Source of the DNA: an uncultured Bacteroidales bacterium
Lineage (GTDB): Bacteria > Bacteroidota > Bacteroidia > Bacteroidales > Paludibacteraceae
Direction of reading: 5' to 3'
NCBI GenBank assembly: GCA_903830915.1
Contig: CAIKVR010000375.1
Coordinates: forward strand, 1 to 64,000
DNA length: 64,000 nt
Positions within the stretch are counted from its first letter, which is position 1. Every line of letters begins with the position of its first letter. The position numbers were made by a program, and so were the translations under genes. Positions 18,737 to 49,945 of this stretch are shown one piece after another. The notes below the pieces were generated by a model. The model searched no databases and was not told the origin of the DNA. It was given only the letters and a program-made list of their open reading frames with translations.

Positions 18737-21421
18737 TTAGATAATCACCTTCTTTGTAACGTTTTCTCCATTTTTATTGCTAAAACGCACTATATAAAGC
18801 CCATTAGCCAAATTTGTATTCAATTGACTTACAGCCATCACCTCTAATATTTTTGCACCTTGTAGATTATAAACCTGAATCGTTCCTGTTTCGGAAGCAA
18901 TGATGGTTTTTCCATGTATGCTCAAAATTAAAGATGTTTTGAAATCATTAAACGGAGTTTCATTGGAAGCCAGCACAACGTTGTTATTCCATGTTTCTGT
19001 ACGGAATGGACATGCCAGTAAACCTTCTGCATTTGTTAGATTTGGTTGAGCGGTAGATGTATAGGCAAACCATACTTTGGTTGGAACTGTTACACTTGTA
19101 GAAGAAACGACAACCGTACTGCCGCTAATGGTTGCAATAGCATCATAAAGAACATTATCAGCACCGGCAATTTGAAAGTTTGTCAAAGTTGCACCATCTT
19201 TAGAAATCAGTCCGCCACCAATGGTTTCGGGCAGAAAATTGATAATCATTTTTCCGTCTTGTATGGAACTTGACTTGTAAATTGGACCAGCATAAACAAT
19301 ATTTTGACCATAATTTTTGGCTTTTGCCCACAATGCCAAACGTTTACTTGGAGTTTGTTTGTCCAATGGATGGATATTCGTAAGTTCGCCCACATCCAAT
19401 GTGACTGCCATACCAGTATTTTTCAATGCTAATAAATTTGTTTGGGCTTCGCGCAATGCAGGCCAATAAGTATTGTTATAAGCAGGTAGTTGCACGTAAT
19501 AAAATGGAAAATCGCCAAGTCCCCACAAGCTTCTCCAATCTTGAATCATGGTGCCACATAGTTTTGTGTAGGTATCTGGTTTTCCTGCATTGGCTTCGCC
19601 TTGATACCACAATGCCCCTTTTATGCCATAAGGAATTATTGGCGCCAGCATTCCGTTATACAACCAACTTGGCTTCAATTGATCCAATGATATAGAAGAA
19701 GGACTTGCCACAAAAGGATCGAGATAAATGGATTTCAACTGTGGATCGGCAGCGAGGGTTTCACTTTTTGTCCAGGCTTCGCAGGTTGAACTTCCCCAAG
19801 CAGCTTCTATCAATCCAATAGGTATATTAATGGTTGGGTCGGTAACTAATTCACGTCCAAAATAATAAGCAATTGCGGAGAAGCTACCAATGGTTGAAGG
19901 ACTGCATAGACTCCATGTACCACTTATAGCATTATTTTGGACAGTTTGTACAGCATTTGCTCCAATATTGAGAATTCGGATAGTTGGATAATTCGCTGCG
20001 GCTATTTCAACCGCACTATTATAAGCAGTAGTAACACTCAGTGCCATATTCGATTGTCCAGAACAAATCCAAACATCGCCAACCAGAATGTTACTTAGCG
20101 AAATTGTATTATTTGCCCCTTTGAAAGTGAGAGTATATTGTGGTGCTTGTCCCGAAACAGCTTTTGGCGTTTGAATTTTGGTAGTCCATTTTCCATCCAC
20201 ACCAACGGTTGCATTTGCCGTTGCACCCCAACTAGCTGTAATTACTATATTGTCGTTTGCTGCGCCCCATCCCCAAAGTGAAACCATCATATCTTGTTGA
20301 AGAACCATGTTGCTATTTATCACTTTTGGAAATATAATCTGATTCCCCACAGTTGTGCTAACCTGAGCTGATGAAGCCGATAATTCAGAATCACTAAAAT
20401 TAAGGTTGTCTCCTTTTGCCACTACCTTGTAAGTGTAAGTATAACCAATTGATGCGCCCGAGAACATATAAGTTGAAACCGCTTGTCCGACTAAGTTTGT
20501 TGTTTTGACCAAATTTCCACCCTGATAAATATTTACATCATAGCTCACTGCATTTGCAGAAGTTGTCCAATTTGCAGTAAAACCTGTATTGGTAATGGCT
20601 GTAGCTGCTGAGATTACGGGTGTTGATATTTTTGGCAGTTTTATACCTAAAGCATCCGGCCAATTATCGCTGAAACGCATTCCTGCCATTTTACCTGTAA
20701 AGGTGGCACGTAAATTTATCCCTTCAATACATTTTAGTGCTGCAGTTGTAACCGATGTAGTGGCTTCAGGAGTTACTGGTTCTGTATCACCAATAACAGG
20801 ATTTACAAATACCGAAAGGATTTCAGTACCTGTGGCAGACGGAATGATTTTTGCAACCACTAAATAGGTTTGATTTTTATTGAGCAAAGTTGTACCAACA
20901 ACAGCGGCTTCAGCATTAAATTGCACACCAACTGAATAACCTGTACCGTTTGTTTGCACTAAAACTTTTCCCCGTTGATATGTACCTAAAAATTGACTGC
21001 CAAACATAAGAAAAGCATCAGCGCTCCTAAACGAAGATATATTTATCAGTGAACTCAAATAAAAAGGCTTCCCTGTGTAAACAGTGGTAGAAGATGTCAA
21101 CGGATAAAATGCGTTATTTCTGGTTGGTGTTGCTTGCGAAAATACAATTGCCTTTCCCAGATTATTGTCAGCATAGTTTGAGTAACTTAATGTGCTAGCT
21201 TCAACTGTTGGAGAAACTAATACCGACAGGGCAGTCCACTCATTTGTAAGAATTGGGGCTGAAGTGTTTGCATAAACATCTCTAACCAAATCTGTACCGT
21301 TAACGTTTATAGCACCCTCAGCCAAAAATGAATTGTAGTCAATAGGCAAAGTTTGCGGATAGGTGGCTTTTGCAAATAACGAAAAGGCACAGAAAGTTAG
21401 AAAAAAGGTGATTTTTTTCAT
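18737..21421 (-). CDS. Modular SASA-type acetylesterase: N-terminal YPQTLPIDY module, FnIII, SASA domain, T9SS tail
   Basis: 894 aa; module aa ~21-258; GDVWICSGQSNMALS and LWYQGEANAGKPDTY; C-terminal IQVYNLQGAKILEV...NLANGLYIVRFSNKNGENVTKKVII. Confidence 0.88.
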   Translation of the reverse strand: MKKITFFLTFCAFSLFAKATYPQTLPIDYNSFLAEGAINVNGTDLVRDVYANTSAPILTNEWTALSVLVSPTVEASTLSYSNYADNNLGKAIVFSQATPTRNNAFYPLTSSTTVYTGKPFYLSSLINISSFRSADAFLMFGSQFLGTYQRGKVLVQTNGTGYSVGVQFNAEAAVVGTTLLNKNQTYLVVAKIIPSATGTEILSVFVNPVIGDTEPVTPEATTSVTTAALKCIEGINLRATFTGKMAGMRFSDNWPDALGIKLPKISTPVISAATAITNTGFTANWTTSANAVSYDVNIYQGGNLVKTTNLVGQAVSTYMFSGASIGYTYTYKVVAKGDNLNFSDSELSASSAQVSTTVGNQIIFPKVINSNMVLQQDMMVSLWGWGAANDNIVITASWGATANATVGVDGKWTTKIQTPKAVSGQAPQYTLTFKGANNTISLSNILVGDVWICSGQSNMALSVTTAYNSAVEIAAANYPTIRILNIGANAVQTVQNNAISGTWSLCSPSTIGSFSAIAYYFGRELVTDPTINIPIGLIEAAWGSSTCEAWTKSETLAADPQLKSIYLDPFVASPSSISLDQLKPSWLYNGMLAPIIPYGIKGALWYQGEANAGKPDTYTKLCGTMIQDWRSLWGLGDFPFYYVQLPAYNNTYWPALREAQTNLLALKNTGMAVTLDVGELTNIHPLDKQTPSKRLALWAKAKNYGQNIVYAGPIYKSSSIQDGKMIINFLPETIGGGLISKDGATLTNFQIAGADNVLYDAIATISGSTVVVSSTSVTVPTKVWFAYTSTAQPNLTNAEGLLACPFRTETWNNNVVLASNETPFNDFKTSLILSIHGKTIIASETGTIQVYNLQGAKILEVMAVSQLNTNLANGLYIVRFSNKNGENVTKKVII
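20648..21361 (-). repeat. YPQTLPIDY module copy 1 (in SASA protein, N-terminal)
   Basis: YPQTLPIDYNSF...STLSYSNYADNNLGKAIV...FVNPVIGDTEPVTPEATTS...RATFTGKMAGMRFSDNW. Confidence 0.85.
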
Positions 21422-22551: not shown

Positions 22552-22585
22552 GTTTTCGTGATTTTATAGTTAATTATCTTGTTTT

Positions 22586-28249: not shown

Positions 28250-31200
28250 TTAGTTTGGAATTGTCGCTTTCAGGGTCGTTAAGTCTCCGTTTTGATGAAT
28301 AAACCGCAGAATATAAAGCCCATTTGGCAAATTTGTATTCAATCGATTTACATCCCGTGCTTCTGATATTTTTGAACCCTGCAAATTGTAAACCTGAATC
28401 GTTCCGGTTTCCGAAGTCATAATAGTATTGTTTGAAACTGAAATACGGATTGAATTTATTGGATTATCCAAACCCGTCAAAGTATCTTTTTTTACTACAT
28501 CCGCCCAATTGTCACTAAAACGAAGTCCGGCAATTGTGCCCGTTGGTGTGGCGCGAAAGCCTATAGATTGAATTTTCGTGAGGATTGCGGCGGCTGAAGT
28601 GGTGGCTTCAGGAGTTACAGGTTCTGAACCGCCAATGGTCGGATTCACAAAAACGGATAAAAATTCAGTTCCCGACGCTGCCGGCGTAATTTTCAACACC
28701 ACTAAATACGTTGTCCCAAAATTTAAAACTGTATTCCCATACACAACGGTTTCGGCACTGCTCTGAACTCCCAAGCTATAACCGATTCCATTCGACGTGG
28801 GATACAGTTTTCCACGTGCATAATTTCCCACATAATCTTTGCCAAACAGCATAAAAGCATCACCGGTCTTAATGGCCGAAAAATTAATTAATGCACAGAT
28901 ATAAAATGATTTTCCGGTATATTCAGTCCCTGAAGTCAGACTGTAATAGGCATATCTTCTGTTTCCATCTGAAACAATTGCTTTTCCAAGTTTATTGTCG
29001 CAATAATTTAAATAACTCAACGTGCTATTTTCTACTGTTGAAGAGCCCGGGGTTATTGATCCGGCAATATTGTTCCACTGATTTGGCAAAATAGGCAAAG
29101 TATAAGTGGCATAAGTCACTTTTACCAAAGAATCAGTTCCCATTGCCGAAGAAGAAAAAAAAGACTTGTAGTTTAACGGCAAAATCTGGGGATATGCACT
29201 TACTTCTGTCCCATTTTTTAATAATATAAACTTGTTTTGGGTTTTTCCACAAGAACTTCCCTTGGTAAATGTAAATGTCAAGGTTTTGGATGAATTGGCA
29301 GCTGTTACAGTGACATTCAGTACCAAGTTGGATTGAACAGGATTTGAAGCTGATATAATCATTGAATCGCCAACAAATTTGGACATTATCAAACAAGGCT
29401 GATCCACATCAATGATAAAGTTAGGAATGGAAATATTTCCTTTTGCATAAAATGCAGCCTGAGTAATATTCAGTGCGGTTTGTCTTACTGCTTGAATGCT
29501 GTTAGTATTGGCAATTACCTGAACCGGAATGGCGGCAGCATAAGCCGAAACGCCTTGTTGATTCACACCCGGAAGAATGATATATTGATACGTGGCGTTT
29601 GTTGGTTTTGTGCCATGGTCAATCCACAAACTAAAAACACTGGCAGTAATGGCAGTTGTAGAACCCTGACCAACATCGCTCCAACTTCCGGTAACGGATT
29701 TATTGCTTACTTTGACATTCGAAGATTGAGGAAAAATATACCCAATGCTATCCTGCAAAACCCATTTTGGCGAAGTTAAACTATACTCATTTCCATTTGC
29801 CAAAGTCACATTATCGGCCACCACATTACTTTTTAGAAAACATTGATTCAGAGTTGTATTAACGGTCTTCGCCAATGTGCAAGTTATCCCTGCTCCCAAT
29901 GCAACTATTTCTTTATCAAAATAAAACCATGTCTTTTTTGCCGTTGTACTAAATTTATTCACCGATAGGACCGACATGCCATAATTGCCATCAGAAACTC
30001 CACCTACAAAAGTTTCTGTTTGATTTAAATTCTGTGATGGAAAAACAGGAATGGTATCGGGACATGTTACGCCCGGTACGTGCGACCATCTCCAAAGCGG
30101 AAAGATATTGAAATATTCAGTCCCATTGCGGGTTATAAATTGTAATCCAAACGGATTCCAATAACCATTTCGGTTATCACCGCTAAAACTTTCTGTGCCA
30201 ACTGTCCGGTTTGAGCACATTCTCACCGATGCATAATAAGCACTTCGTTGGTGAACCATAAAATCACCATTCCAAAAAAACTGATTCCCCAAAAAGCTAT
30301 ACTTGTTTCCAGTTCCAGCAATATGCTTATACAGTGCATCATAGGTCGGCTTATTGGCAGGTAAAAGGGTTGAAATCAAAGTCAACAAGGGCTGCATGTA
30401 ATTTTTGGTAGTTCCTTCAATGGCAATACCTCTGCCTTCGCCATAATCGTGAAACCATGCATTGCGGTATAACTTACAGGTATTCAGTAGTAAATCCGAC
30501 AAAACCCGCAATCTATTTGGAGAAACAGCGAAAGTTGTTCCACTCACCTTTATGGCATAAGGTATCTGATCCTCCAGAAATGAACGTCCATAACCGCAGT
30601 TATAAAATTGTGCTCCATGTTGAAAAAAACTATAATCTTCCTGAATACCAACACCATCTGTAGCCGTAGAAGTTTGAACGTGACCGCTATATTTTAATAT
30701 ATCGAGCTGCATCTGAATGCTGTCAAGTGCCGACCTCATATCAGCCGAATCTTTCAGCAAAATGCCTCTGTGCAACTTTTGCCCCAAAATCCACACTAAA
30801 TTCTGACCTTCTACCCAACTTGGATCGGGTCGCTGTGTGGATAATAACGAACAGCCCTTGAGCAATAAAGTATTGGAGATGGAACCTTGCATCAAGATAA
30901 GTACCTTTTGCAAATAGTCTTGCTGGCCAATGTCAAAATCAAACCAATTGCTATAATAAAATGTAAAAACATTTGTACACCAATAATCCAAACCGTTGGT
31001 TATGGCTGTGAGCATTGCCGGAGAATGATATTCAATATGACTTGAAGTTTGATAGGAACCCGCCATAGTGTTCAATCTACTTAAATGAGTGATAGGAAAG
31101 CTATTCACATAATCCAAATCAGACCATGAACCATTTGCATTCATACTCGTTCTGGTGGCAGTTGCTGAACTATGGCTTGATGACATATAATCCGTAAAAA

Positions 31201-31297
31201 ACCTTGACCTGATTGTTTCAATATCCGACAAAGCCTGCGCTTCTAAACCTACCAAGATATTGGATAATAGAAAGAATATAAGTATTGATTTTTTCAT
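28250..31297 (-). CDS. PL8-family lyase fused to C-terminal YPQTLPIDY module and T9SS tail
   Basis: 1015 aa; SNWFDFDIGQQ, GIQEDYSFFQHGAQFYNCGYGRSF, GTESFSGDNRNGYWNPFG; module aa ~702-937; C-terminal T9SS tail. Confidence 0.85.
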   Translation of the reverse strand: MKKSILIFFLLSNILVGLEAQALSDIETIRSRFFTDYMSSSHSSATATRTSMNANGSWSDLDYVNSFPITHLSRLNTMAGSYQTSSHIEYHSPAMLTAITNGLDYWCTNVFTFYYSNWFDFDIGQQDYLQKVLILMQGSISNTLLLKGCSLLSTQRPDPSWVEGQNLVWILGQKLHRGILLKDSADMRSALDSIQMQLDILKYSGHVQTSTATDGVGIQEDYSFFQHGAQFYNCGYGRSFLEDQIPYAIKVSGTTFAVSPNRLRVLSDLLLNTCKLYRNAWFHDYGEGRGIAIEGTTKNYMQPLLTLISTLLPANKPTYDALYKHIAGTGNKYSFLGNQFFWNGDFMVHQRSAYYASVRMCSNRTVGTESFSGDNRNGYWNPFGLQFITRNGTEYFNIFPLWRWSHVPGVTCPDTIPVFPSQNLNQTETFVGGVSDGNYGMSVLSVNKFSTTAKKTWFYFDKEIVALGAGITCTLAKTVNTTLNQCFLKSNVVADNVTLANGNEYSLTSPKWVLQDSIGYIFPQSSNVKVSNKSVTGSWSDVGQGSTTAITASVFSLWIDHGTKPTNATYQYIILPGVNQQGVSAYAAAIPVQVIANTNSIQAVRQTALNITQAAFYAKGNISIPNFIIDVDQPCLIMSKFVGDSMIISASNPVQSNLVLNVTVTAANSSKTLTFTFTKGSSCGKTQNKFILLKNGTEVSAYPQILPLNYKSFFSSSAMGTDSLVKVTYATYTLPILPNQWNNIAGSITPGSSTVENSTLSYLNYCDNKLGKAIVSDGNRRYAYYSLTSGTEYTGKSFYICALINFSAIKTGDAFMLFGKDYVGNYARGKLYPTSNGIGYSLGVQSSAETVVYGNTVLNFGTTYLVVLKITPAASGTEFLSVFVNPTIGGSEPVTPEATTSAAAILTKIQSIGFRATPTGTIAGLRFSDNWADVVKKDTLTGLDNPINSIRISVSNNTIMTSETGTIQVYNLQGSKISEARDVNRLNTNLPNGLYILRFIHQNGDLTTLKATIPN
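28487..29194 (-). repeat. YPQTLPIDY module copy 2 (C-terminal to PL8)
   Basis: YPQILPLNYKSFF...STLSYLNYCDNKLGKAIV...FVNPTIGGSEPVTPEATTS...RATPTGTIAGLRFSDNWADVVK. Confidence 0.85.
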
Positions 31298-35802: not shown

Positions 35803-37890
35803 TTATTTTAAATCTAGCATTTTAGTTTGCGTTGCCCCACCGGCACTACTTGACGTAAATGTAAAAGAAATACTAGATTTTTCTGCTGCATTTTTTCGCA
35901 TAATATTAACATTCAGCATTTTATTTGACCAATCGGGATTGGACGCTGAAATGGACAAACCGCTTTTTGTTTCCTTTATCATGAGCAAACAAGGCTGATC
36001 AACATCCACTGTATATAATTTGGTTGTAACTTTTCCTTTTTGATAAAATGCTATTTGCGTAATGCCCAATTCATTGTGACGAACCGCTTGTAAGTTAGAG
36101 TCATTTTGAATGAACTGAACAGGTAATTTCGACACATATTTGACCAACTCATTTTTCTCAATGTCAGGCACAATTATGTATTGATAGCTTTCGTTGGTCG
36201 GCTTCACGCCATGACTTAGCCAAAGAGAAAATACACCGGAAGTAAATTTTTTGTCAGAACCTTGCCCAATATCGCTCCAACTTCCGGTTTCTTCCATATT
36301 TCTTATGCTAATATCATATTTATCAGGAAATACATATCCAATTTTATCGTGCAATACCCATTTGATGTTCTGGAGCTTAGACTCACTGCCCGACTCCAAT
36401 ACTTTTCCATCCACCATCACATCTCCAACCAGGTAGCATTGGTTCAATGTGGTGTTCACTTCTTGTTTTGCAGTGGAAGCAATTCCAGTTCCCAACGCAA
36501 CAATTTCTTTATCGAAGAAAAACCAGGCTTTTTTTGCTTTTGTGTTGAATTTATTCATTGTCAAAACTGACATGCCATATTTTCCATCGGACACACCACC
36601 TACAAACTTCTCGGTTTGACTTTGATTCTGGGCTGTAAACCGAGGAACTGTGTCCGGACAAGTTACGCCCGGTACATGCGACCATTTCCAAAGTGGGAAA
36701 ATACTGGAATATTCGGTACCATTTCGGGTAATAAATTGAATACCAAACGGATTCCAATAACCATTTCGGTTATCGCCACTAAAGCTTTCGGTGCCAACAG
36801 TACGATCGGAGCACATTCTCACCGATGCATAATAGGCATTGCGCTGCTGAACCATAAAATCGCCATTCCAAAAATAGGTATTTCCCTGAAAACTGGAAGA
36901 GGCGCCAGTTCCGGCAAAATGATCCAATAAAGCCTGACATTCACTCTTTTTTTGTGGATTTAAGATAGAAATCATCGTTAATAATGGTACCATATAATTC
37001 TTTGTACCTCCATCAATGGCTATGCCTCTACCTTCGGCAGGGTCGTGAAACAATGAATTGCGGTACAACTTACAGGTAGTAAGGAAGTAGTTTGACAAAA
37101 CATCCAATCGTTGTGGTGTCAGTGCAAAACAGGTTCCTCTCACCATCATAGCATACGAAATTTGATCCTGCAAAAATGTGCGTCCATAACCGCAGTTGTA
37201 GAACTGGGCACCATGTTGAAAAAAGCTGTAATCTTCCTGGATACCAACCCCAAAGCTGCCATCGCCTTTTTGTATTTTTCCACTGTATTTCACAATTTCA
37301 AGCTGCATTTGAATACTGTCAAGTGCACTTCTCATATCAGCAGAATCTCTCAACAAAACACCTCTATGCAATTTCTGACCCATGATCCAAACCAGATTCT
37401 GACCTTCCACCCAACGCGATGTTGGTCGCATGGTCGATAAATAGGTAGTTCCTGTTAGAATCAAATCGTTGGAAATAAATCCCTGCATCAAAATCAGGAT
37501 TTTTTGCAGCGGAATTTGCTGTCCAATATCCATCACCCACCAATTTGAGCTTAAGCCCTTTTTGCTTTTAAACCAAAAATCAAGCCCCCGAGATATTGCC
37601 TCCAGCATAGCAGGAGATTGATATTCAGCATTTTTTGATGACTGATAGGAAGCAGCCATTTTTAGCAATCTATCCAAATGGGCGGTTGGAAAATCTTTCA
37701 CATAATCCAGATCCTGCCATTTGCCAGATGCATCTTGCGAAGTTCTGGTAGAAGTTGCAGTACTATGGCTTGCTGATAAATATTCCGCGTAAAATCTTGA
37801 TCTTACAGTTTCAATATCGGTCAATGCTTGTGCTTTAGAAGCTGTAAATACAAAGCAAATGAAGATAAATATCAGTGTCGATTTTTTCAT
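35803..37890 (-). CDS. PL8-family lyase without module or T9SS tail (start set at internal MKKSTL; ORF track start is 37917)
   Basis: SNWWVMDIGQQIPLQ, GIQEDYSFFQHGAQFYNCGYGRTF, GTESFSGDNRNGYWNPFG; ends FTFTSSSAGGATQTKMLDLK*. Confidence 0.87.
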   Translation of the reverse strand: MKKSTLIFIFICFVFTASKAQALTDIETVRSRFYAEYLSASHSTATSTRTSQDASGKWQDLDYVKDFPTAHLDRLLKMAASYQSSKNAEYQSPAMLEAISRGLDFWFKSKKGLSSNWWVMDIGQQIPLQKILILMQGFISNDLILTGTTYLSTMRPTSRWVEGQNLVWIMGQKLHRGVLLRDSADMRSALDSIQMQLEIVKYSGKIQKGDGSFGVGIQEDYSFFQHGAQFYNCGYGRTFLQDQISYAMMVRGTCFALTPQRLDVLSNYFLTTCKLYRNSLFHDPAEGRGIAIDGGTKNYMVPLLTMISILNPQKKSECQALLDHFAGTGASSSFQGNTYFWNGDFMVQQRNAYYASVRMCSDRTVGTESFSGDNRNGYWNPFGIQFITRNGTEYSSIFPLWKWSHVPGVTCPDTVPRFTAQNQSQTEKFVGGVSDGKYGMSVLTMNKFNTKAKKAWFFFDKEIVALGTGIASTAKQEVNTTLNQCYLVGDVMVDGKVLESGSESKLQNIKWVLHDKIGYVFPDKYDISIRNMEETGSWSDIGQGSDKKFTSGVFSLWLSHGVKPTNESYQYIIVPDIEKNELVKYVSKLPVQFIQNDSNLQAVRHNELGITQIAFYQKGKVTTKLYTVDVDQPCLLMIKETKSGLSISASNPDWSNKMLNVNIMRKNAAEKSSISFTFTSSSAGGATQTKMLDLK

Positions 37891-37990
37891 TTTGAGCATT
37901 GGTACAAATAAGTCCACTGAATAAAGTTAAAATTCATTTCTTTAGAGAACCGAAAATACTTTATACAGTGGACTTAAAATTACTTCTTAT

Positions 37991-40099
37991 TTAAAATGCG
38001 ATTTTTTGATTTGTAGTTTGTCCTTTTTCATTCGTGAAACGAACGATATATAAACCTGATACTAAATCAGTTTTCAAACTACTCACATCTTTTGCGTTTA
38101 ACACTTGTTTTCCCTGAAGGTTGAAAACACTTATTTCCCCTTTTTCAGAGCTGAAAATGTTTCTTCCTATAACTGTCAAAGAACTTGCTACGGTTTGGTT
38201 ATCTAAAGCTGTAGTATTACTTGGTGTTACCGAAGCAGAAGCAACTGATTGATACGAATCGGAAAAAGCAATATCTCCATCACCGATTGCCGATACCTTG
38301 TAGGTGTAAGGACTATTGGTTATTAAACCTGTTACGGCAACACTTTCGGTAGTTTGACCCGTAACAGTTATAACTTTCCGAACAACTAATGCGGCATCAG
38401 AAACTCTTACAACATAACCACCTGAAGCATTTGGAACTTGTGTCCAATTGGCAGTAAAACCAGTTGTAGTTATAGCAGAAGCAGTTCCAACAGTTGGTGC
38501 AGGAAGTGTTGCCGGATTAGTAGTCCGGGTAATGACCTGATATACTGAAAGTCCGCTGGTAAAGCTATTTTCAATCCTGAATTTTGTAGGTACAGTTCTC
38601 GATATTGAAATTACAAAAATACCTTCTACAGAATTCATTGTACTATAATTTCCAACAACAGCCCAACCATTTCCAACAAATTCCTTTACAACAAAACCTT
38701 TATTATCAGAACTGGACTTAGCATGAATTTCAATTTGCTCCACACTATTTACGGTTGGGAAAGCCAACATGCTGCCATAAGTGGAGTAATCTAACGATAT
38801 ATTGTTTACATGCACTTCCGCTTTTGGACCATTATTGCCCACTCCACGAATATAACCCTTTACCAAATCAAATCCATTTGCCGACGAACTCGGGAATACA
38901 CCAGCTATAGGATATGGAAATTCTGTTGAACCATTTAGTACTGTTCCCCAGGTTCCATCACCTAAATCCGTTCTAATGGTAGCTTTGTTATCAGTATTTG
39001 TAGAAATTACTTCTTTTGCAGGTATTGAAGGATCTGAATCACTAAAAGTAGTTCCGTTACCTTTTGATATTACTTTATAGTTATAAATAAGGCCGGAAGG
39101 TAAACCGGTAATAGCCAGACTTGCAGTGCCTTGACCTACAGCATTGGTTGTACTTACCAAATTTGAACCCAAATATACATTTACATCATAACCGACTGCA
39201 TTAGCATCCGGTGTCCAATGAGCTGTGAAACCTGTGGCGGAAATACCATCTGCATCCTGAACTGCCGGGGCAGTAAGCTTTGTAACATAAGGTTTAACAA
39301 CATCTGCCCAATTATCGCTAAAACGCATTCCTGCCATTTTACCAGTAAACGTGGCACGTATGTTTATCCCTTTTATATATAACAACTGTGATGGAGTGAT
39401 TGATGTAGTAGCTTCAGGAGTTACTGGCTCTGTGCCACCAATAACAGGATTTACAAACACCGAAATTATTTCGGTACCTCCAGCAGCAGCTGGAGAAATT
39501 TTTGCAACAACTAAATAAGTTGTATTTTTATTAAGCAATGTAGTACCATTCACAGCGGTTTCAGTATTAAATTGAACACCTAGCGAAAAACCCGCACCAT
39601 TTGTTACTACTTGAACTTTCCCTCGTTGAAAAGTACCTAGAATTTGACTGCCAAACATAAGAAAAGGATCAGCACTTCTAAAGGATGACATATTTATCAA
39701 TGTGCTCAGATAAAATGGTTTCCCTGTGTAAGCAGTATTTAAAGATGTTAGCGGATAGTAAGCGTTATTTCTGGTTGGTGTTGCTGGTGAAAACACAATA
39801 TTCTTTCCAAGGTTATTGTCAATGTAGTTTGAATAACTTAATGTACTGGCTTCAACTGTTGGAGATACCAATGGTGTTACTGCATATTGAAAAGTCCATT
39901 CATTTGGTAGAATGGGTGTTGCAGGCGATGGAGCTGGTGTTTGATTAGGATATACATCTCGTACCAAATCGGTACCGTTAACGTTTATAGCCGATGCAGC
40001 AAAAAACTGGCTATAATCAATGGGCAAGGTTTGTGGATAAATTGCTTTTGCCGCCAAAGTCAACCCACAAAGAGCTAATAATAATGTAATTTTTTTCAT
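37991..40099 (-). CDS. T9SS cargo protein: YPQTLPIDY module, FnIII, FGDGTWG module, FnIII, T9SS tail
   Basis: 702 aa; module aa ~21-269; LGDGTWGTV...ITRTT block; tail ISVFNLQGKQVLNAKDVSSLKTDLVSGLYIVRFTNEKGQTTNQKIAF. Confidence 0.75.
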   Translation of the reverse strand: MKKITLLLALCGLTLAAKAIYPQTLPIDYSQFFAASAINVNGTDLVRDVYPNQTPAPSPATPILPNEWTFQYAVTPLVSPTVEASTLSYSNYIDNNLGKNIVFSPATPTRNNAYYPLTSLNTAYTGKPFYLSTLINMSSFRSADPFLMFGSQILGTFQRGKVQVVTNGAGFSLGVQFNTETAVNGTTLLNKNTTYLVVAKISPAAAGGTEIISVFVNPVIGGTEPVTPEATTSITPSQLLYIKGINIRATFTGKMAGMRFSDNWADVVKPYVTKLTAPAVQDADGISATGFTAHWTPDANAVGYDVNVYLGSNLVSTTNAVGQGTASLAITGLPSGLIYNYKVISKGNGTTFSDSDPSIPAKEVISTNTDNKATIRTDLGDGTWGTVLNGSTEFPYPIAGVFPSSSANGFDLVKGYIRGVGNNGPKAEVHVNNISLDYSTYGSMLAFPTVNSVEQIEIHAKSSSDNKGFVVKEFVGNGWAVVGNYSTMNSVEGIFVISISRTVPTKFRIENSFTSGLSVYQVITRTTNPATLPAPTVGTASAITTTGFTANWTQVPNASGGYVVRVSDAALVVRKVITVTGQTTESVAVTGLITNSPYTYKVSAIGDGDIAFSDSYQSVASASVTPSNTTALDNQTVASSLTVIGRNIFSSEKGEISVFNLQGKQVLNAKDVSSLKTDLVSGLYIVRFTNEKGQTTNQKIAF
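39293..40039 (-). repeat. YPQTLPIDY module copy 4 (N-terminal)
   Basis: YPQTLPIDYSQFF...FVNPVIGGTEPVTPEATTS...RATFTGKMAGMRFSDNWADVVK. Confidence 0.85.
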
Positions 40100-40333: not shown

Positions 40334-42139
40334 TTATCTTGTCGAAAAAATAAGTTTTTTGGTAGTACTTTGTCCATTATGATTGGTGAAACGCACAACG
40401 TATAGTCCATTCGTTAAATTGGTATTCAATTTACTTACTTCTTTTGCCTGTAATAATTTAGTTCCTAGCAAGTTGTACACCTCCATATTTCCTACCTCGG
40501 AAGCAATAATTGTATTGCCAATAACAGATAAAGTGCTTGATACATTTAGTTCGTTTAAAGCAGTAAGTTTGGGAGTAGTAATTATCTGTGTAATAGATAA
40601 TACAGAATAACTACCCGTTTCAATTCTGAATTTTGCAGGAACAGACAAAGGTATTGAATAGCTAAAAATCTCTTCTATACCCGCTGCAGCAGCAATGGTA
40701 AAAGTAGTGACAGTCGTCCATGTAGTGCCCACCAATTCTTTTAATAGCATTTTTCTGGTTGTGGCTGAACCTGAAAAGGCATGAATCTCAACTTTTTCAA
40801 CACTATTTAAAGTAGGAAAATCCACCATTCCAACTACCAATGGCGTTGAGGAGTTAAGTGCAAGTAATTGAATGGCATTTGTATGCGATTCGCCATTAGG
40901 CCCTAAATACGTTCCCGATTTTAATGTCCCGCTTGCCACTATAAATCCATTTTCCGACCATGGGGTTGCAGTTCTGTCAGTTGTAACACCCCAAGATCCA
41001 TCTCCAAAGTTTGTATTGATGGCAGCTATTGCACCTAAGGTTTGAACGTTTATAATTGCAGATGGATCAGAGTTGGCAAAATTAATTCCATCTCCTTTTG
41101 CCTGCACTTTGAAGTTATAAAGCAAACCCGAAGGCAATGCCGAAATATCCAAACTTGAAGAAGCTTGACCGCTAACAGTGGAAGTACTATACAAGTTTGT
41201 TCCTAAATATACATCCACATCGTAAGCTGTTGCATTTGCTACGGGTGTCCAATGGGCGGTAAACCCCGTGGCAGTAACATTACTAGCATCCTGAACAACT
41301 GGCACCGATAGTTTTGGAACATAAACTTTTACAACGTCCTCCCAATTGTCACTAAAGCGAAGACCAGACATTTTACCCGTAAAAGTAGCACGTAAAGATA
41401 TTCCATCAATATTTTTCAAAGCTGAGGTTGCAACTGATGTTGTGGCTTCAGGAGTTGCCGGTTCAGCACCGCCAAGAACTGGATTTACAAAAACCGAAAG
41501 GGTTTCTGTTCCGGTAGCAACTGGAGTTATTTTCACAACTATTAAATAAGTTTGATTCAAATTTAGTAAAGTGCTCCCATTCACAGCTGTTTCAGCAGAT
41601 TCGGTATTAAAAAGCACTCCAAGTGAGTAACCTGTTCCGTTCGTCATTGCATGCACTCTTCCTCGCACATAATTACCCAAAACAGTATTCCCGAAAAACA
41701 GAAAAGCATCTCCTGTCCTGAAGGATGACATATTTATCAGCGCACTCAGATAAAATGATTTTCCTGTGTATGCAGTAGCGGAAGATGTCAATGGATAGTA
41801 GGCACTATTTCTGGTTGGCGTTACCAATGGAAATACCACTGCCTTTCCAGCATTATTGTCAATATAGTTTGAGTAACTTAATGTACTAGGTTCAACCAAA
41901 GGAGAAACTAGTGGTGTAGCAGCATATTGCGCTGTCCATTCATTTGCCATAATGGTTGTAGCAGGTACTGGCGTTGGCGTTTGATTGGGATATACATCCC
42001 GTACCAAATCGGTACCGTTAGCGTTTATTGCCGTAGGGGCAAAAAACTGGTTGTAGTCAATAGGCAATGTTTGTGGGTAAGTGGCTTTTGCCACTAAAGT
42101 CAACCCACAAAGGGCTAATAATAATGTAAGTTTTTTCAT
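40334..42139 (-). CDS. T9SS cargo protein: YPQTLPIDY module, FnIII, FGDGTWG module, T9SS tail
   Basis: 601 aa; module aa ~21-271; FGDGSWGVT block; tail MEVYNLLGTKLLQAKEVSKLNTNLTNGLYVVRFTNHNGQSTTKKLIF. Confidence 0.75.
   Translation of the reverse strand: MKKLTLLLALCGLTLVAKATYPQTLPIDYNQFFAPTAINANGTDLVRDVYPNQTPTPVPATTIMANEWTAQYAATPLVSPLVEPSTLSYSNYIDNNAGKAVVFPLVTPTRNSAYYPLTSSATAYTGKSFYLSALINMSSFRTGDAFLFFGNTVLGNYVRGRVHAMTNGTGYSLGVLFNTESAETAVNGSTLLNLNQTYLIVVKITPVATGTETLSVFVNPVLGGAEPATPEATTSVATSALKNIDGISLRATFTGKMSGLRFSDNWEDVVKVYVPKLSVPVVQDASNVTATGFTAHWTPVANATAYDVDVYLGTNLYSTSTVSGQASSSLDISALPSGLLYNFKVQAKGDGINFANSDPSAIINVQTLGAIAAINTNFGDGSWGVTTDRTATPWSENGFIVASGTLKSGTYLGPNGESHTNAIQLLALNSSTPLVVGMVDFPTLNSVEKVEIHAFSGSATTRKMLLKELVGTTWTTVTTFTIAAAAGIEEIFSYSIPLSVPAKFRIETGSYSVLSITQIITTPKLTALNELNVSSTLSVIGNTIIASEVGNMEVYNLLGTKLLQAKEVSKLNTNLTNGLYVVRFTNHNGQSTTKKLIFSTR
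41327..42079 (-). repeat. YPQTLPIDY module copy 5 (N-terminal)
   Basis: YPQTLPIDYNQFF...FVNPVLGGAEPATPEATTS...RATFTGKMSGLRFSDNWEDVVK. Confidence 0.85.
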
Positions 42140-42253: not shown

Positions 42254-43015
42254 CTATTTTACCACATCAGCCCATTTGTCACTAAAGCGAAGACCGGCAA
42301 TTTTTCCTCTCGCAGTGGCACGTAAAACGATAGCTTGAATTTGCCTCAAAATCGGCGTTTCTGTGGAAGTGGTGGCTTCGGCAGTGGTTGGCTCTGTAGC
42401 ACCAATGCTTGGATTTACGAATACTGAAAGAGATTCTGCCCCTGATGTAGATGGTGTAATTTTCAGCACAACCAAATAGGTCTGGTTTTTATTTAGAATA
42501 GTTGCTCCGGTTACAATAGGTTCAGCATTACTCTGCACTCCCAAGCTATAACCCTTTCCGTTGGTCATTGGGTAGAGTTTTCCTCTCAGGTAGTTGCCCC
42601 AGTAATCTTTTGAAAAAGTAAGAATAAAATCAGCATTCCTTATGGATGACAAGTTAATCAAAGCACTCAGATAAAATGCCTTTCCTGAATATTCCGAACC
42701 CTTGGTAAGACTGTAAACAGCATATTTTCTGGATGATTCAGTTACAACAGCTTTTCCCATATTATTATCACAATAACTCGTATAAGTCAATGTATTGGGT
42801 ACAACTGCGGCAGACCCTGAAGCGAGATTGTTCCATTGATTGGCAAGAATAGGAGATTTCAATGGAATCTCATAAATTGCTTTTATCAACGAATCAGGTC
42901 CGATTGCCGAAGGGGCGAAAAATGATTTGTAATCAATGGGCAAAGTTTGTGGATACTGTGCTTTAGCAACTAAAGTAACTACACAAAGCGCAAATAAAAA
43001 TATTAATTTTTTCAT
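42254..43015 (-). CDS. Stand-alone secreted YPQTLPIDY-module protein
   Basis: 253 aa; signal peptide followed only by the repeated module; stop directly after RFSDKWADVVK; no T9SS tail. Confidence 0.75.
   Translation of the reverse strand: MKKLIFLFALCVVTLVAKAQYPQTLPIDYKSFFAPSAIGPDSLIKAIYEIPLKSPILANQWNNLASGSAAVVPNTLTYTSYCDNNMGKAVVTESSRKYAVYSLTKGSEYSGKAFYLSALINLSSIRNADFILTFSKDYWGNYLRGKLYPMTNGKGYSLGVQSNAEPIVTGATILNKNQTYLVVLKITPSTSGAESLSVFVNPSIGATEPTTAEATTSTETPILRQIQAIVLRATARGKIAGLRFSDKWADVVK
42257..42955 (-). repeat. YPQTLPIDY module copy 6 (stand-alone)
   Basis: YPQTLPIDYKSFF...FVNPSIGATEPTTAEATTS...RATARGKIAGLRFSDKWADVVK*. Confidence 0.85.
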
Positions 43016-43066
43016 GAAACAATAATCTAAAGGTGAATAATGTGTTTTTATTTTGTTTCCGTTTTC

Positions 43067-43234
43067 TTAGCCTATCATTGTTTTAAACGGATCTGTATGG
43101 AAGTATTCGGGAACATTTATTCTTGCTTCACCAGGTGCCTGTGGAGGTGTTGACTCAAGCTGTAGTGATATTTCATTATCCAGTTCAACACGTTCAATCT
43201 GTGGAGTTATATATCCTTGTTTTATTGTTTTCAT
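43067..43234 (-). CDS. Small (~55 aa) protein MKTIKQGYITPQIERVELDNEISLQLESTPPQAPGEARINVPEYFHTDPFKTMIG
   Basis: Short ORF between PUL genes, same strand; internal Met at 43234 favoured over ORF-track start 43330; resembles short 'KPxIExVELDxExSLxLES' proteins common in Bacteroidales. Confidence 0.5.
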   Translation of the reverse strand: MKTIKQGYITPQIERVELDNEISLQLESTPPQAPGEARINVPEYFHTDPFKTMIG

Positions 43235-43359
43235 GCTGTTTGATTTTATGTTTAATTTCATAATTCTTAGGATTTCCTTATTCCCACCAACTCCCATGTT
43301 GGAATTGGTGGTACTTAAAGGCGTAAACAAATCATTGTTAAGGTATTTATTTTAAATAA

Positions 43360-46300
43360 TCAATCAATAATTACTCTTTTTGTTGCAGTCTTACCGGCAT
43401 TTACAACTGTTACCAAATATACTCCGGGAACAAAGGTGTTGTCAAATTCAGTAATAGTACTTTTCAGTTGTTTTGTGGCTAGTTTTTGTCCTATGGCATT
43501 GTAAACTGAAACCGTATTTTGAGAATTCAAATTTCCGTTGTAATTGACAATTATCTGATTGTTTCCATTTTGTGAAACCGATATTTTGTCAAAATTACTA
43601 TCTGTTGAATTCATACTTGTAGTAATCGAAGGCGATTTAAACATAAGGGTAAACCGATTGGAAGTTGCCGCAACATCCGATGCAAATGTATAAGCACTCC
43701 CATCAGTTAAGTTCCATTCAACCAAATTAGCAGGATTCTGATAATCTTTCAGAATAATTTCAGTTTCCGGTTCAAAATTTTTGAATTCACTTGCTTTAAT
43801 TGTAAATGAGTTTGACTGTCCGGTTGTAAATCCAATCGGTAATTCAGTATTGTAGCTTATACTGCTCATACCATTAACAACCATCTGTTCAGTTCCAAGC
43901 AATGTGTAAATCTCGGGCATTGAAGCACTGCCATTGGTCATTTTAGGTGAATCAAAATCATCGTAACTGTTCGATGCACCCGAATTGAATAAAATGATTG
44001 TTTCGTCATTATTCGTTCCGTTTGAAATCTGCAACCGTAAAACCTGTTGTGTGGCATTCTTTGCTGAAGGAGCTCTGAAATTATTTGTACTTACATCTTT
44101 GTGTGCACGCATTAAATTACTAAATTTAAGTGTACCTGAAGTATTACTGCCTGTTGATTTTACTCTTACCCAAAATGATTGCATTGGTGGAATTAAGCCT
44201 GTAACTGCTCCTATTTGATTGTTATTTGTTCCAACGCCTCCTGTTTCGTTATATGTATCAAAAACATAACCGGGTGTTGATGCTGTATTTTGAGTACGAT
44301 ACCAAATCGATGTCAACAAGTTTGTTGTTCCTGTGTTATTCACATCAATGGCCGACATCCAGTTTATATACGAAGGATATGGATTTCCAACCAGATTAAA
44401 TCCTCGTTTTGCTTGTCCATTTTCGGTTCGATAAACTGTTATTGTTTTGTCGCCCGTATTCAATGCTCCTCCGTTAAATGTAACAGTAGCAGTACTTGTT
44501 GGTTTAAAAATATATCCGGTCATTACACCCATCGTTTCAGGTGTTGAAACATAATCCCAAATTGCACTTCCAGGATTTCCGGTTACACCCGTATTCGGTT
44601 CGTTATATTTCCAAAGTGTACCTGCAGGTAAAATGCTGCTCGATGCCGAAGCTACCGGACTTGAAATATACCAGTTTCTTCCTGCTGTCATGTATTGTTG
44701 AACGCTGGCAATTCCGGTTATATTGGTAGTTCCGTTATCAACATAGGTACCTGTACCCGATGCATCGCTATTTATGCTAAAGTTTGTAGCAGTAAGCGTA
44801 CTGCCCGAATTATTTGTTACTTTTCCGCCACGGGCAATGCTAATACTGTAAACGGTTGCATCGCCATTAATTGTCAATACTCCTCCTGATGCCACGGTTA
44901 CAACACTGGATGCTGTCAAACTTAAATCACTCGAATTTTGAGCTGTCGAAACCGTTGTAAATAAACCTTTAACCACTTCAGCCCAAGTGTCGCTAAAACG
45001 AATTCCTCCAATTTTGCCAGTTGGTGCCGTGCGAAAAACAAGTGATTGAATTTTTCCCAAAGCAAAGGGTGCTGTAAGTGTAGCTTCAACAGCTGTAGCT
45101 CCCTCTGTTCCACCAATAACTGGGTTTACAAACATAGTAAGGGACTCGTTTCCAGAAGCTGCCGGTGTAATCTTCAAAACTACCAAATAAGTTTGATTTT
45201 TATTTAGTACTGTTGTTCCCATTGTGTTGGCTTCACTTGCTAGTTGCAATCCTAAATTATAACCAGTCCCATTGGCAACAGCCCAAAGTTTCCATCTACT
45301 AAAATTACCTGCATAATCTCTACTAAACTGAAAGAATGCGACAGACCCAAAGGCTGAGAAATTAATCAAAGCACTCAGATAATATGGCTTTCCGGTATAT
45401 TCTGAACCTGAAGTCAAGCTATATGTACCGTATTTAGCGGCTCCAGCAGTTACAATTTGCTTTCCTAAGCCATTATCTATATAATTTGAGTAACTTAGTG
45501 TACTGTTTTCTATAGTAGGAGATACTAATCCAGTGCCAAGATTTGTCCATTGATTTGCCTGGATTGGGTCTGAATATACAGCATAAGTAGTTCTTACCAA
45601 ATCAGTACCATTTGGATTAATTGCTCCTGCAGCAAAAAAAGAATTATAGTCAATTACCCCGGAAAATCCAGTTTTTGTAATCACCCCTCCCGGAGTTGTT
45701 ACACTTACACTTCCTGAAGTTCCCGAAGCAACGACAGCTGTAATTGAAGTAGCACTGGCCACGCTATATGATGTGGCAGATATCCCGCCAAAGCTAACTG
45801 CCGTAGCACCAGTGAAATTTGTACCTGTGATGGTTACTGTTGTGCCAGAAACTGCGCTAGTTGGAGTAAATGACGTAATGGTTGGTGCAGGAACAGGTTT
45901 TACTGCGTCCGTCCAATTATCGCAGATGCGAAGACCGGCAATTTTTCCAAGTTGATAATGTTGTTTAATAGCTATTGCATGAATACTACCAAGATCTTTA
46001 AGCGCTGTAGCAATTGTAATCGTTGGACTAGGTTCTGTTTCGCCAATAGTCGGATTTACAAATAACGAAACAGTTTCTGTTCCTGTTGAAGTTGGATTAA
46101 TTTTCAATACAAGCAAATAGGTCTGACCTAAAGTGAAGTGTGTAGGTGAATTAGTAGTAGTTTCACTATTATACTTAAGTCCTAAATAATATCCACCTGA
46201 ACCGTCAGTAGTAACCATAATTTTACCTCGTTGGACATTACCTGTATGATCCTTAGAAAAACTTACAATGTAATCAGTAGCAGGGGAAGTGATATTCACT

Positions 46301-46671
46301 AATACACTAACATAAAAATTCGTCCCAGTGTATTCCGTGCCTGCTGTTAGACTGTAAACCGAGATACGATTTGTACAATTCCCGAGTATTATGGCTTTCC
46401 CTACATTGTTATCAATGTAGTTTGAATAATTCAACGTATTAGCTTCAACAATAGGATTGCTACCTGTAGTATAACTAGTGCCCAAGTTCCATTGATTTGC
46501 CAAAATGGCATCTCCAGTTGTTGCATAAACTCCTTTTTCCAAAGCAGGATTTGTTCCCAATGCACTGGCAGCAAAAAACTGACTGTAATCAATCGGCAAT
46601 GTTTGCGGATAAATTGCTTTTGCCACTAACGCAAAAGCGAATAGTGCCAATAATAATGTAATTTTTTTCAT
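43360..46671 (-). CDS. Large T9SS surface protein with two YPQTLPIDY modules separated by an IPT/TIG domain
   Basis: 1103 aa; modules at aa ~21-258 and ~338-568; ITSFTPTSAVSGTTVTITGTNFTGATAVSFGG (IPT/TIG); ISVSQNGNNQIIVNYNG...VSVYNAIGQKLATKQL...GVYLVTVVNAGKTATKRVIID tail. Confidence 0.8.
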   Translation of the reverse strand: MKKITLLLALFAFALVAKAIYPQTLPIDYSQFFAASALGTNPALEKGVYATTGDAILANQWNLGTSYTTGSNPIVEANTLNYSNYIDNNVGKAIILGNCTNRISVYSLTAGTEYTGTNFYVSVLVNITSPATDYIVSFSKDHTGNVQRGKIMVTTDGSGGYYLGLKYNSETTTNSPTHFTLGQTYLLVLKINPTSTGTETVSLFVNPTIGETEPSPTITIATALKDLGSIHAIAIKQHYQLGKIAGLRICDNWTDAVKPVPAPTITSFTPTSAVSGTTVTITGTNFTGATAVSFGGISATSYSVASATSITAVVASGTSGSVSVTTPGGVITKTGFSGVIDYNSFFAAGAINPNGTDLVRTTYAVYSDPIQANQWTNLGTGLVSPTIENSTLSYSNYIDNGLGKQIVTAGAAKYGTYSLTSGSEYTGKPYYLSALINFSAFGSVAFFQFSRDYAGNFSRWKLWAVANGTGYNLGLQLASEANTMGTTVLNKNQTYLVVLKITPAASGNESLTMFVNPVIGGTEGATAVEATLTAPFALGKIQSLVFRTAPTGKIGGIRFSDTWAEVVKGLFTTVSTAQNSSDLSLTASSVVTVASGGVLTINGDATVYSISIARGGKVTNNSGSTLTATNFSINSDASGTGTYVDNGTTNITGIASVQQYMTAGRNWYISSPVASASSSILPAGTLWKYNEPNTGVTGNPGSAIWDYVSTPETMGVMTGYIFKPTSTATVTFNGGALNTGDKTITVYRTENGQAKRGFNLVGNPYPSYINWMSAIDVNNTGTTNLLTSIWYRTQNTASTPGYVFDTYNETGGVGTNNNQIGAVTGLIPPMQSFWVRVKSTGSNTSGTLKFSNLMRAHKDVSTNNFRAPSAKNATQQVLRLQISNGTNNDETIILFNSGASNSYDDFDSPKMTNGSASMPEIYTLLGTEQMVVNGMSSISYNTELPIGFTTGQSNSFTIKASEFKNFEPETEIILKDYQNPANLVEWNLTDGSAYTFASDVAATSNRFTLMFKSPSITTSMNSTDSNFDKISVSQNGNNQIIVNYNGNLNSQNTVSVYNAIGQKLATKQLKSTITEFDNTFVPGVYLVTVVNAGKTATKRVIID
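44968..45660 (-). repeat. YPQTLPIDY module copy 7 (second in large T9SS protein)
   Basis: VIDYNSFFAAGAINPNGTDLVR...STLSYSNYIDNGLGKQIV...FVNPVIGGTEGATAVEAT...GKIGGIRFSDTWAEVVK; approximate edges. Confidence 0.8.
45898..46611 (-). repeat. YPQTLPIDY module copy 8 (first in large T9SS protein)
   Basis: YPQTLPIDYSQFF...NTLNYSNYIDNNVGKAII...LFVNPTIGETEPSPT...LGKIAGLRICDNWTDAVK; most divergent copy. Confidence 0.8.
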
Positions 46672-47080: not shown

Positions 47081-49945
47081 TTATTTTGTCAATACTTTGA
47101 ACACTGCATCTTGCCTAGTACTCTTTACTTTTACAATATACAATCCATTTTGAGGGATATTAAAAGATTTATTTTGTGTACTAATTATCAACCTGCCCAT
47201 ACAATCAAATACTTTTGTCTCTGTTTTTTCAGAAGTTTCAATATTTATGTTGTTACCGTTTATCTTAATTCCGGCATTAGTTCCTATCAATATTTCTTTT
47301 ACATCGGTTGCATTAGCAAGTGCTTCTTCAATAAAAGCATCGGTTTCGGTAGTAACTTGTGTCTCATAGGGTCCAAAACCATTATGTCCATAGCCAGGAA
47401 TGGTGGTGAATTTATATTTTGCTCCCGCAGTTTCCAAAGCTGCCGCAAGTGCCACCGACTGGCTGTAGTAAATGGATGCATCGGCATCTCCGTGTACAAG
47501 ATAAGTAGCCGGTGAACTGGCTGTTACATACGTAATGGGTGATACCGTCCGAACAAAGTCCATATTGGTGGTATAAGTACCCAACCAATTCACCCAACCA
47601 CCATAATACATCAAATTAACCATGTCGCAGGGTGCAGAGCGGGCTGTAACAGCAAGCACTTTAATATCGCCGTTATAGGGCGGACAATCATTGTCGAACA
47701 TTTTGTTGTTTTGCAAATAAGCAGCCATCAAAGCCAAATGTGCACCAGCCGACGTGCCTTGCAATATAATCTTGTTCTTATCAATATTCAAGGTTTGAGC
47801 ATGATTCAGTACATAAAGCAATGCTCCGCGCACATCTTCAACTGCTGCAGGGGCCAACGCCTCACCGGTCATTCGGTATTCGATGCGTGCAATGGCGTAA
47901 CCTTTGGCAAAATAGCTTCCGAAAGCACTTGCACCTTCTTTGAAACCACCAACCCATGCACCACCATGAATGCCCATTATGATAGGTGCCGGGGTCGTTG
48001 CATTGGTGGGATAATAAATATCCATGCGGCAGTTGGTACTGTTCACGGTTTTGTAGTTCACATCCAACAAAGCACTGTAATTAGAAGGATAACCAACTAT
48101 TTTCATGGTTTGAAAATTGAGCGTAATGGCTTTCGAGAGATTGGTGGCATTTCCAATTTCAGCAAATGCACCTGCAGAAACAGTCAGAGTTTGGGTTGCA
48201 TTAATGGTATTGCTTGGAATCATCGCTACCGGAATGGTGACCACATTGGCCAAAATAGTGCAACTGCCCAGCTGAATAGAAACCGCATTGAGCAGAATGG
48301 TTCCCGTGGCGGTTTGTATGTTTCTATTGAAAGTAAGCGTTATTGTTTTCTGAATATTGGAATATGCAAGTTCGCCCTCTACCGGTGATGAACTTCTAAG
48401 AGTCACTTCTGACGATTGTTGTAAGGTGCGTGTAAATATTTTGTAAATACTAAGGGAGCTCCCTGTATTATTGGCAATCCGAAGTTTTGTTGCCGAGCTG
48501 CGTAACAATGGAATGGTATAAACACTATCGGGTGTGTTTCGGGTAATATAGGTGCCAATGATTTGCCACACACTTCCTACTAGTTCTTCCAATCGGAATG
48601 AACTTCCGGTAGTGCCGGTTGCAGCATGAATTTCAATCTCACCTACAGTTTCCAGTAATGGAAACTCAACCAGGGCAGCTTCTGAACTTCCACCAATAAT
48701 AAATCTGTTGGTATGTATTTCTCCTGTTGGACAGGTTGCTGTACTTTTATAAAGATAGCCCTTTATAATATTAAATCCATTGATGATAGCGGTAGGATAG
48801 GTACCGTAAGTCAGATATGAAGTGGCAGCTGTTCCCCAAGTGCCATCACCAAAATCAGTTTTGATGTAACTTACCGAAATTGGTGCTAAAGTTGTTATAT
48901 TGGCAGAGGAAGCAGACAAATTAGAATCATCGTTGACAATTCCATCCCCTTTTGCCACTATCTTATACGTATAAATCATACTTCCGGTCAAACCGCTAAT
49001 GACCAGACTAGAAGTGCTTTGCCCGGTTACAGTGGTAGAACTAACTAAGCTTGTTCCTTGATATAGTTTTACAATATAACCTATTGCATTGGCCACGGGT
49101 ATCCAATTGGCGGTAAAACTTGTTTCGGTAATTAAGGTAGCTGAGCCAACAGTTGGTGTAGTGATTTTTGGAAGTCCTACTTTTACTGCATCTGCCCAAT
49201 TGTCGCTAAAACGAAGACCAGCAATTTTGCCTGTTGGTGTAGCACGCAATGTAATGGCTTGTATTTTTGATAACGCAAAAGCCAATGAAAGCGTAGCTTC
49301 TGGAGTTGTTGGTTCTGCGCCCCCAATTACAGGATTTATATACAGCGAAAAGGATTCAGTGCCAGAAAGTGCTGGTGTAACTTTCAATACAATTAAATAC
49401 GTCTCACCAAATTTCAATAAAGTTGGTGTCACATTAGTTACAGCAGTTTCAGTATTTTGTTGCACACCTAAATTAAAACCCGTTGTGCCATTAGTTAATG
49501 TGGTCACTCTCCAACGAAGGTAGTTGCCATACACATCTCTGCTAAAAAATAGAAAGGCATCATTATTCCTGATGGCCGAGAAATTAATCAATGCGCTGAG
49601 ATAAAACGGTTTTCCAGTATATTCCGAACCGTTAGTGAGACTATAGCTTCCGTAACGTCTGTTTCCACTCACCACCACTGATTTTCCAAAATTATTGTCG
49701 CAATAAGTGGAATAACTCAGTGCGCTATTTTCAACAAGTGAAGTTCCCAATACAAGATTATTCCATTGATTTGCCAAAATTGCGGCACTTGTATTTGTAT
49801 ATGTGGCTTTTACTAACGAATCGGCACCCATTGCAGTTGCATTAAAAAACTGGCTGTAATCAATGGGTAAAGTTTGTGGATAGCTTGCTTTTACAATAAA
49901 AGTAAATGCACAAAAAGAGAATAATATGATTGTAATCCTTTTCAT
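47081..49945 (-). CDS. Modular alpha/beta-hydrolase esterase: YPQTLPIDY module, FnIII, FGDGTWG module, Big_5-like domain, esterase, T9SS tail
   Basis: 954 aa; MGIHGGAWVGG oxyanion region, ILQGTSAGAHLAL nucleophile elbow, VHGDADASIYY, PGYGHNGFGPYE; C-terminal VFDCMGRLIIS...NGLYIVKVKS. Confidence 0.85.
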   Translation of the reverse strand: MKRITIILFSFCAFTFIVKASYPQTLPIDYSQFFNATAMGADSLVKATYTNTSAAILANQWNNLVLGTSLVENSALSYSTYCDNNFGKSVVVSGNRRYGSYSLTNGSEYTGKPFYLSALINFSAIRNNDAFLFFSRDVYGNYLRWRVTTLTNGTTGFNLGVQQNTETAVTNVTPTLLKFGETYLIVLKVTPALSGTESFSLYINPVIGGAEPTTPEATLSLAFALSKIQAITLRATPTGKIAGLRFSDNWADAVKVGLPKITTPTVGSATLITETSFTANWIPVANAIGYIVKLYQGTSLVSSTTVTGQSTSSLVISGLTGSMIYTYKIVAKGDGIVNDDSNLSASSANITTLAPISVSYIKTDFGDGTWGTAATSYLTYGTYPTAIINGFNIIKGYLYKSTATCPTGEIHTNRFIIGGSSEAALVEFPLLETVGEIEIHAATGTTGSSFRLEELVGSVWQIIGTYITRNTPDSVYTIPLLRSSATKLRIANNTGSSLSIYKIFTRTLQQSSEVTLRSSSPVEGELAYSNIQKTITLTFNRNIQTATGTILLNAVSIQLGSCTILANVVTIPVAMIPSNTINATQTLTVSAGAFAEIGNATNLSKAITLNFQTMKIVGYPSNYSALLDVNYKTVNSTNCRMDIYYPTNATTPAPIIMGIHGGAWVGGFKEGASAFGSYFAKGYAIARIEYRMTGEALAPAAVEDVRGALLYVLNHAQTLNIDKNKIILQGTSAGAHLALMAAYLQNNKMFDNDCPPYNGDIKVLAVTARSAPCDMVNLMYYGGWVNWLGTYTTNMDFVRTVSPITYVTASSPATYLVHGDADASIYYSQSVALAAALETAGAKYKFTTIPGYGHNGFGPYETQVTTETDAFIEEALANATDVKEILIGTNAGIKINGNNINIETSEKTETKVFDCMGRLIISTQNKSFNIPQNGLYIVKVKSTRQDAVFKVLTK
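49184..49882 (-). repeat. YPQTLPIDY module copy 9 (N-terminal to esterase)
   Basis: YPQTLPIDYSQFF...SALSYSTYCDNNFGKSVV...YINPVIGGAEPTTPEAT...RATPTGKIAGLRFSDNWADAVK. Confidence 0.85.

Follow-up and report, generated by a model that had tools for sequence, protein, structure and literature searches.

A recurrent jelly-roll module on T9SS-exported proteins of a Bacteroidales polysaccharide locus is a candidate substrate-targeting cassette

Why should one module of about 235 amino acids recur among the proteins of a single polysaccharide utilisation locus, joined here to a lyase, there to an esterase, and elsewhere to no enzyme at all? The locus in question (4915-51186, minus strand, from domain scans) lies in a 64,000-nucleotide stretch of DNA from an uncultured Bacteroidales bacterium of the Paludibacteraceae (contig CAIKVR010000375.1), called the window below. 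It encodes a GH2 enzyme, three GH29 enzymes, a GH3 enzyme, a sulfatase, a GH88-type unsaturated uronyl hydrolase and a BD-FAE hydrolase, together with three PL8 lyases, an Alginate_lyase-family protein, a PL14-like protein, two SASA esterases, SusC/SusD and two putative lipoproteins. Judged from what is known of these families, this repertoire suggests that the target is a polysaccharide rich in uronic acids, acetylated, containing fucose and possibly sulfated. Starch-type alpha-amylase-like proteins, recognised by eye only, are encoded apart from the PL8 locus, at 59024-63996 of the window (minus strand).

An initial annotation had placed nine copies of the module, here M1, in eight minus-strand proteins, and a search of the window's genome with the copy in 42254 (proteins are named by their first coordinate) recovered all nine, at E-values of 7e-165 to 4e-63; they range over 20651-49888, so that the outer coordinates originally given were about right. 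In six proteins M1 is N-terminal, directly behind the signal peptide. These are the SASA esterase 18737-21421 (M1 at 20651-21364, then an fn3-like stretch, the SASA domain and a T9SS tail); the BD-FAE alpha/beta-hydrolase 47081-49945 (M1 at 49184-49888); the non-catalytic proteins 37991-40099 (M1-fn3-M2-fn3-T9SS tail, with M1 at 39296-40045), 40334-42139 (M1-fn3-M2-T9SS tail, with M1 at 41330-42085) and 43360-46671 (a first, N-terminal copy at 45901-46617 and a second at 44971-45654); and 42254-43015, the entire mature protein of which is M1 (42257-42961), with no T9SS tail. In the two PL8 lyases 28250-31297 and 31333-34383, M1 (28490-29197 and 31573-32277, respectively) follows the catalytic domain and precedes the sorting tail at the C terminus. 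The hosts had thus been assigned correctly (two PL8 lyases, a SASA esterase, an alpha/beta-hydrolase, non-catalytic proteins and one stand-alone protein), and a domain scan of the locus proteins agrees that M1 is joined to different enzymes within one glycan locus. A truncated T9SS tail downstream of 42254 was looked for in the 115-bp gap and not seen. Between 42254 and 43360 there is also a small ORF of ~70 aa (window ~43060-43290, minus strand), which starts MKTIKQGYITPQIERVELDNEISLQLESTPP.

The nine copies can be aligned along their whole length of ~235 positions; 44 columns are invariant, and mean column identity is 64%. With the 42254 copy the other eight share 50-62% identity, and over all pairs the range is 41-79%. 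Pairwise dN/dS values of 0.14-0.31 indicate purifying selection on all copies, and most pairs are close to saturated at synonymous sites; the copies are therefore not recent and are all constrained. Chance or low-complexity repetition can be rejected as their source, given E-values of 4e-63 or better and this purifying selection. In a tree of 125 modules the nine form one group (support 96/19), eight of them with support of 100/99, and among the modules closest to them are those at the N terminus of BD-FAE esterases from alginate-type (PL6/PL17) loci in congeners. The nine copies are one local expansion.

No Pfam or NCBIfam model fits M1 among the 52 members scanned, isolated matches to unrelated families being confined to one member each; the earlier statement that M1 has no named family accordingly holds for these two collections, in single-protein and profile searches alike. 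Searches of PDB sequences, likewise with single proteins and with profiles, gave no convincing match to solved chains. The AlphaFold2 model (52-row alignment) is all-beta, with a pLDDT of 93.4 and a pTM of 0.92, and Foldseek returned 154 PDB matches at E<=0.001, the top of the list being mostly concanavalin-like jelly rolls. The initial annotation had predicted just such a sandwich and proposed structure prediction as a check, and on that check the prediction stands. The nearest structures (E 1e-6 to 1e-5) are the calreticulin lectin domain, AbnA domain 4, TtX122, galectin-9, CBM40 (the sialic-acid-binding domain of Vibrio cholerae sialidase) and PL20/PL36 lyases. M1 therefore shares with the concanavalin A-like superfamily (LamG, galectin, calreticulin and the CBM40-type sialidase lectin domain) a predicted jelly-roll sandwich, at a Foldseek probability of 1.0, as well as, in the window's locus, a position adjoining carbohydrate enzymes. 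It differs from that superfamily in lacking any Pfam or NCBIfam match and in a TM-score of only about 0.5 at 8-16% identity, for which reason M1 is a separate family inside a known fold. This fold class holds both binding and non-binding domains; glycan binding by M1 is plausible.

The PL8 lyases offer the best computational argument that M1 resembles a carbohydrate-binding module (CBM). All three PL8 proteins of the locus contain the NLVW and HGxQxYNxGYG motifs, in which we take the catalytic Asn, His and Tyr to lie. One of them, 35803-37917 (minus strand), has neither M1 nor a sorting tail. With it the PL8 part of 28250 shares 62.6% identity, as against 37.8% with the module-bearing 31333, which implies that fusion to M1 took place, or was undone, on more than one occasion; 28250 and 35803, both on the minus strand, are probably the exported and the periplasmic version of one enzyme. 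The slot which M1 occupies between PL8 and T9SS tail is CBM-like, and elsewhere it is filled by LamG-like or F5/8-type domains. A PL8 of the same genome (contig C393, L131:2682-5816) has a Big_2 and a Laminin_G_3/3keto-disac_hyd-like domain before its T9SS tail, and a PL8 of the congener G025 has an F5_F8_type_C domain between PL8 and tail, both the Laminin_G_3 and the F5/8 matches falling below Pfam's curated cutoffs. These Laminin_G_3-like and F5/8 type C (CBM32-like) domains, while sharing the place of M1, belong to other sequence families and, as far as seen, are not multiplied across a locus. The gene at L131:2682-5816 adjoins those of a GH2-type enzyme and of a weakly heparinase II/III-like protein.

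The association with the type IX secretion system (T9SS) is close. A T9SS sorting domain ends seven of the eight M1 proteins, the exception being 42254; when tested against TIGR04183 and PF18962, six of the seven tailed proteins exceeded the TIGR04183 cutoff (23 bits), 47081 fell short of it (17.6), and 42254 gave no match. M1 is present in 7/7 tailed and 1/16 untailed locus proteins (n=23; Fisher p 3e-5, which is only descriptive because the locus proteins have shared ancestry), the untailed calls for SusC, SusD, 21505 and 22586 having been made by eye rather than by HMM. The tails of 18737, 28250, 31333 and 40334 are 54-63% identical. In this locus M1 and the T9SS sorting tail travel together, as a cassette.

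Three of the M1 proteins carry a second unnamed module of ~165 aa, M2, on the minus strand at 48392-48895 (in 47081), 40550-41050 (in 40334) and 38501-39007 (in 37991), and M2 is also found behind M1 and fn3 in the esterases of the PL6/PL17 loci. Its model (pLDDT 89.7) matches 8x8h, 8wc1 and CBM6, CBM35 and CBM36 structures. The entries 8x8h and 8wc1 are described as the carbohydrate-binding domain of a putative pectate lyase; no sequence similarity between M2 and any of the structures matched was found, and a literature search on 8wc1 and 8x8h found no paper. Two paralogous esterases retain M2 and have an unrelated N-terminal region in place of M1 (L015:2522-4873 and L082:3820-6177, both with M2 and BD-FAE regions, L015 also with a Big_5-like one); the replacing region has no Pfam or NCBIfam match in either protein.

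M1 is not confined to the window's locus, an option that we rejected on finding relatives in the same genome, in related genomes and in a sample of the phylum. Further, more distant copies lie on contigs C180, C212, C314 and C377 of the window's own genome, and the family is present in 18 of 60 relatives and in about a fifth (62/297) of the genomes sampled across the phylum, with members also in Ignavibacteria, Flavobacteria, Hymenobacteraceae, Prevotellaceae and one Verrucomicrobia bin. A common layout is signal peptide, M1 and T9SS tail. Among 72 full-length relatives, a T9SS tail was found in 43, fn3 domains in 12, and a catalytic domain of the families listed in two, both BD-FAE; 42 are of 480 aa or less, with little beyond module and tail, although the short flanks of many loci bias the set towards small proteins. 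M1-family modules also occur on SASA esterases in two congeners (G002 and G006). As M1 matches no Pfam or NCBIfam family, proteins consisting mainly of it are labelled hypothetical or by their tail only; public records of the relatives read 'hypothetical' or 'T9SS type A sorting domain-containing protein', and one long relative is annotated as cellulose-binding-domain-containing, a label that may refer to another domain.

Most of the family lies outside glycan loci, and as a whole it is not a glycan-locus module. Near 28 distantly related M1 loci we found no homologue of the glycan enzymes of the window's locus, and one SusC only; in a Pfam scan of 92 neighbours of distant M1, the 25 most frequent families included no glycoside hydrolase or lyase, which is weak negative evidence. 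The congeners G022 and G015 each have four copies in a locus (L084:1-17498 and L085:6322-18646) where M1 neighbours a beta-aspartyl-peptidase (375.8 bits against a cutoff of 331 in G022), the C4-dicarboxylate transporter DctA and an M14 (zinc) carboxypeptidase, with SusC/SusD alongside in G022; no recognised glycan enzyme was present among the proteins scanned. All eight modules form one clade (support 100/100). Amplification proceeds locus by locus, each drawing on its own M1 clade, with nine copies in the window and four each in L084 and L085. Isoaspartyl dipeptidases perform the last step of cyanophycin breakdown (PMC10206079), so that these could possibly be SusCD-type uptake loci for a cyanophycin-like or isoaspartyl peptide polymer. 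L084/L085 and the surroundings of the 28 distant loci weaken the case for a strictly glycan-bound M1.

Domain 4 of AbnA, a GH43 arabinanase (5hon; E 1.7e-6), is like M1 an accessory jelly-roll on a polysaccharide-degrading enzyme, but it is only 14% identical (TMq 0.44), and enzyme, host phylum and secretion route are all different. TtX122 of Teredinibacter turnerae (8q2a, 8q29; TM about 0.5) is likewise a jelly-roll of secreted multimodular proteins; these are, however, proteobacterial redox proteins, and no sequence relation to M1 was found. Expressed TtX122 displayed neither clear enzyme activity nor detectable binding to plant cell-wall glycans (PMC10916295). The initial annotation had also invoked the logic of the cellulosome, in which, as here, a single module type is common to several enzymes of one degradation system. 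That part is not supported: dockerin and cohesin differ from M1 in fold and size, and no cohesin/dockerin-type domain was reported in the M1 proteins (Pfam, NCBIfam) or in ten further locus proteins (Pfam), so that cellulosome-style assembly through M1 was rejected for want of partner domains.

We favour, at a probability of roughly 0.55, the reading of M1 as a CBM-like substrate-targeting module of T9SS-exported proteins. Within the window's locus a single ancestral M1, akin to the module that opens an esterase of alginate-type loci, would have duplicated, and as a concanavalin-like beta-sandwich that binds a ligand would have served as an interchangeable targeting cassette on proteins that leave the cell: the two PL8 lyases, the acetylesterase, the feruloyl-esterase-like hydrolase and the non-catalytic surface proteins. 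With a ligand that would be set locus by locus, fusion to M1 would keep these exported proteins at one shared target, for which the likeliest candidate is the acetylated and fucosylated polysaccharide, rich in uronic acids, that is broken down by the locus; such tethering would be expected to raise the efficiency of the enzymes. We count in favour the fold, the PL8 slot, the link to the tail, the local expansion, purifying selection, the fold of M2 and the SASA fusions elsewhere. A CBM is a contiguous module in carbohydrate-active enzymes, and M1 is found as such in two PL8 lyases, a SASA esterase and a BD-FAE hydrolase here, and in BD-FAE and SASA enzymes elsewhere. Against it we count the few catalytic partners in the family, the non-glycan loci, the peptide-type L084/L085 and the want of glycan binding by TtX122.

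Amplification by each locus of its own M1 clade regardless of substrate class, the commonness of enzyme-free M1 proteins and the strong link to T9SS tails would also suit a module that binds something other than the substrate, such as a polymer of the cell surface, a second M1 or a common component of the outer membrane, and thereby collects exported proteins on the surface. This we consider unlikely, given that T9SS proteins are usually anchored through their C-terminal domain with no extra module of this kind, that no partner domain has been identified, and that M1 has its PL8 slot in common with LamG-like and F5/8-type domains. It is rather improbable that M1 binds nothing and serves as a structural spacer or as a folding or export aid for T9SS cargo: the stand-alone 42254, without a tail, has no other part to hold at a distance, yet shows pairwise dN/dS values of 0.15-0.31; proteins that are essentially module plus tail are common; and a lectin-type sandwich of 235 aa is large for a spacer. 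Consistent with such a role, on the other hand, are the wide spread of the family, mostly without catalytic partners and co-occurring with T9SS tails, and the replacement of M1 by an unrelated N-terminal region in the two paralogous esterases.

Least credible, and in our judgement very improbable, is that M1 is an enzyme in its own right, a lyase or hydrolase of polysaccharides, weak or undescribed, on the jelly-roll scaffold that PL20 and PL36 also have. Foldseek does return the glucuronan lyase 2zzj and the alginate lyase Aly36B, and R126 and E147 are invariant in the nine copies; the TM-scores with these lyases are only 0.33-0.49, however, two copies are already fused to complete PL8 lyases, and the charged residues conserved across the whole family (K167, E190, R214 and R225) form no apparent catalytic-centre pattern. 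The aromatic residues W43, Y60, Y63, Y97 and W230 are conserved as well.

With nine copies on the exported proteins of one locus, among them a stand-alone protein of 253 aa, the ligand of the substrate-targeting module proposed here is directly testable. More tentatively, and with some doubt on our part, M1 may found a large and so far uncatalogued family of adhesive jelly-roll modules linked to T9SS, the specificity of which, for a glycan or a peptide polymer, is fixed locus by locus, an amplified M1 serving as the shared targeting code of secreted enzymes and surface proteins. The recurrence of locus-specific amplification suggests a general principle for the targeting of T9SS proteins, one that extends beyond glycans.
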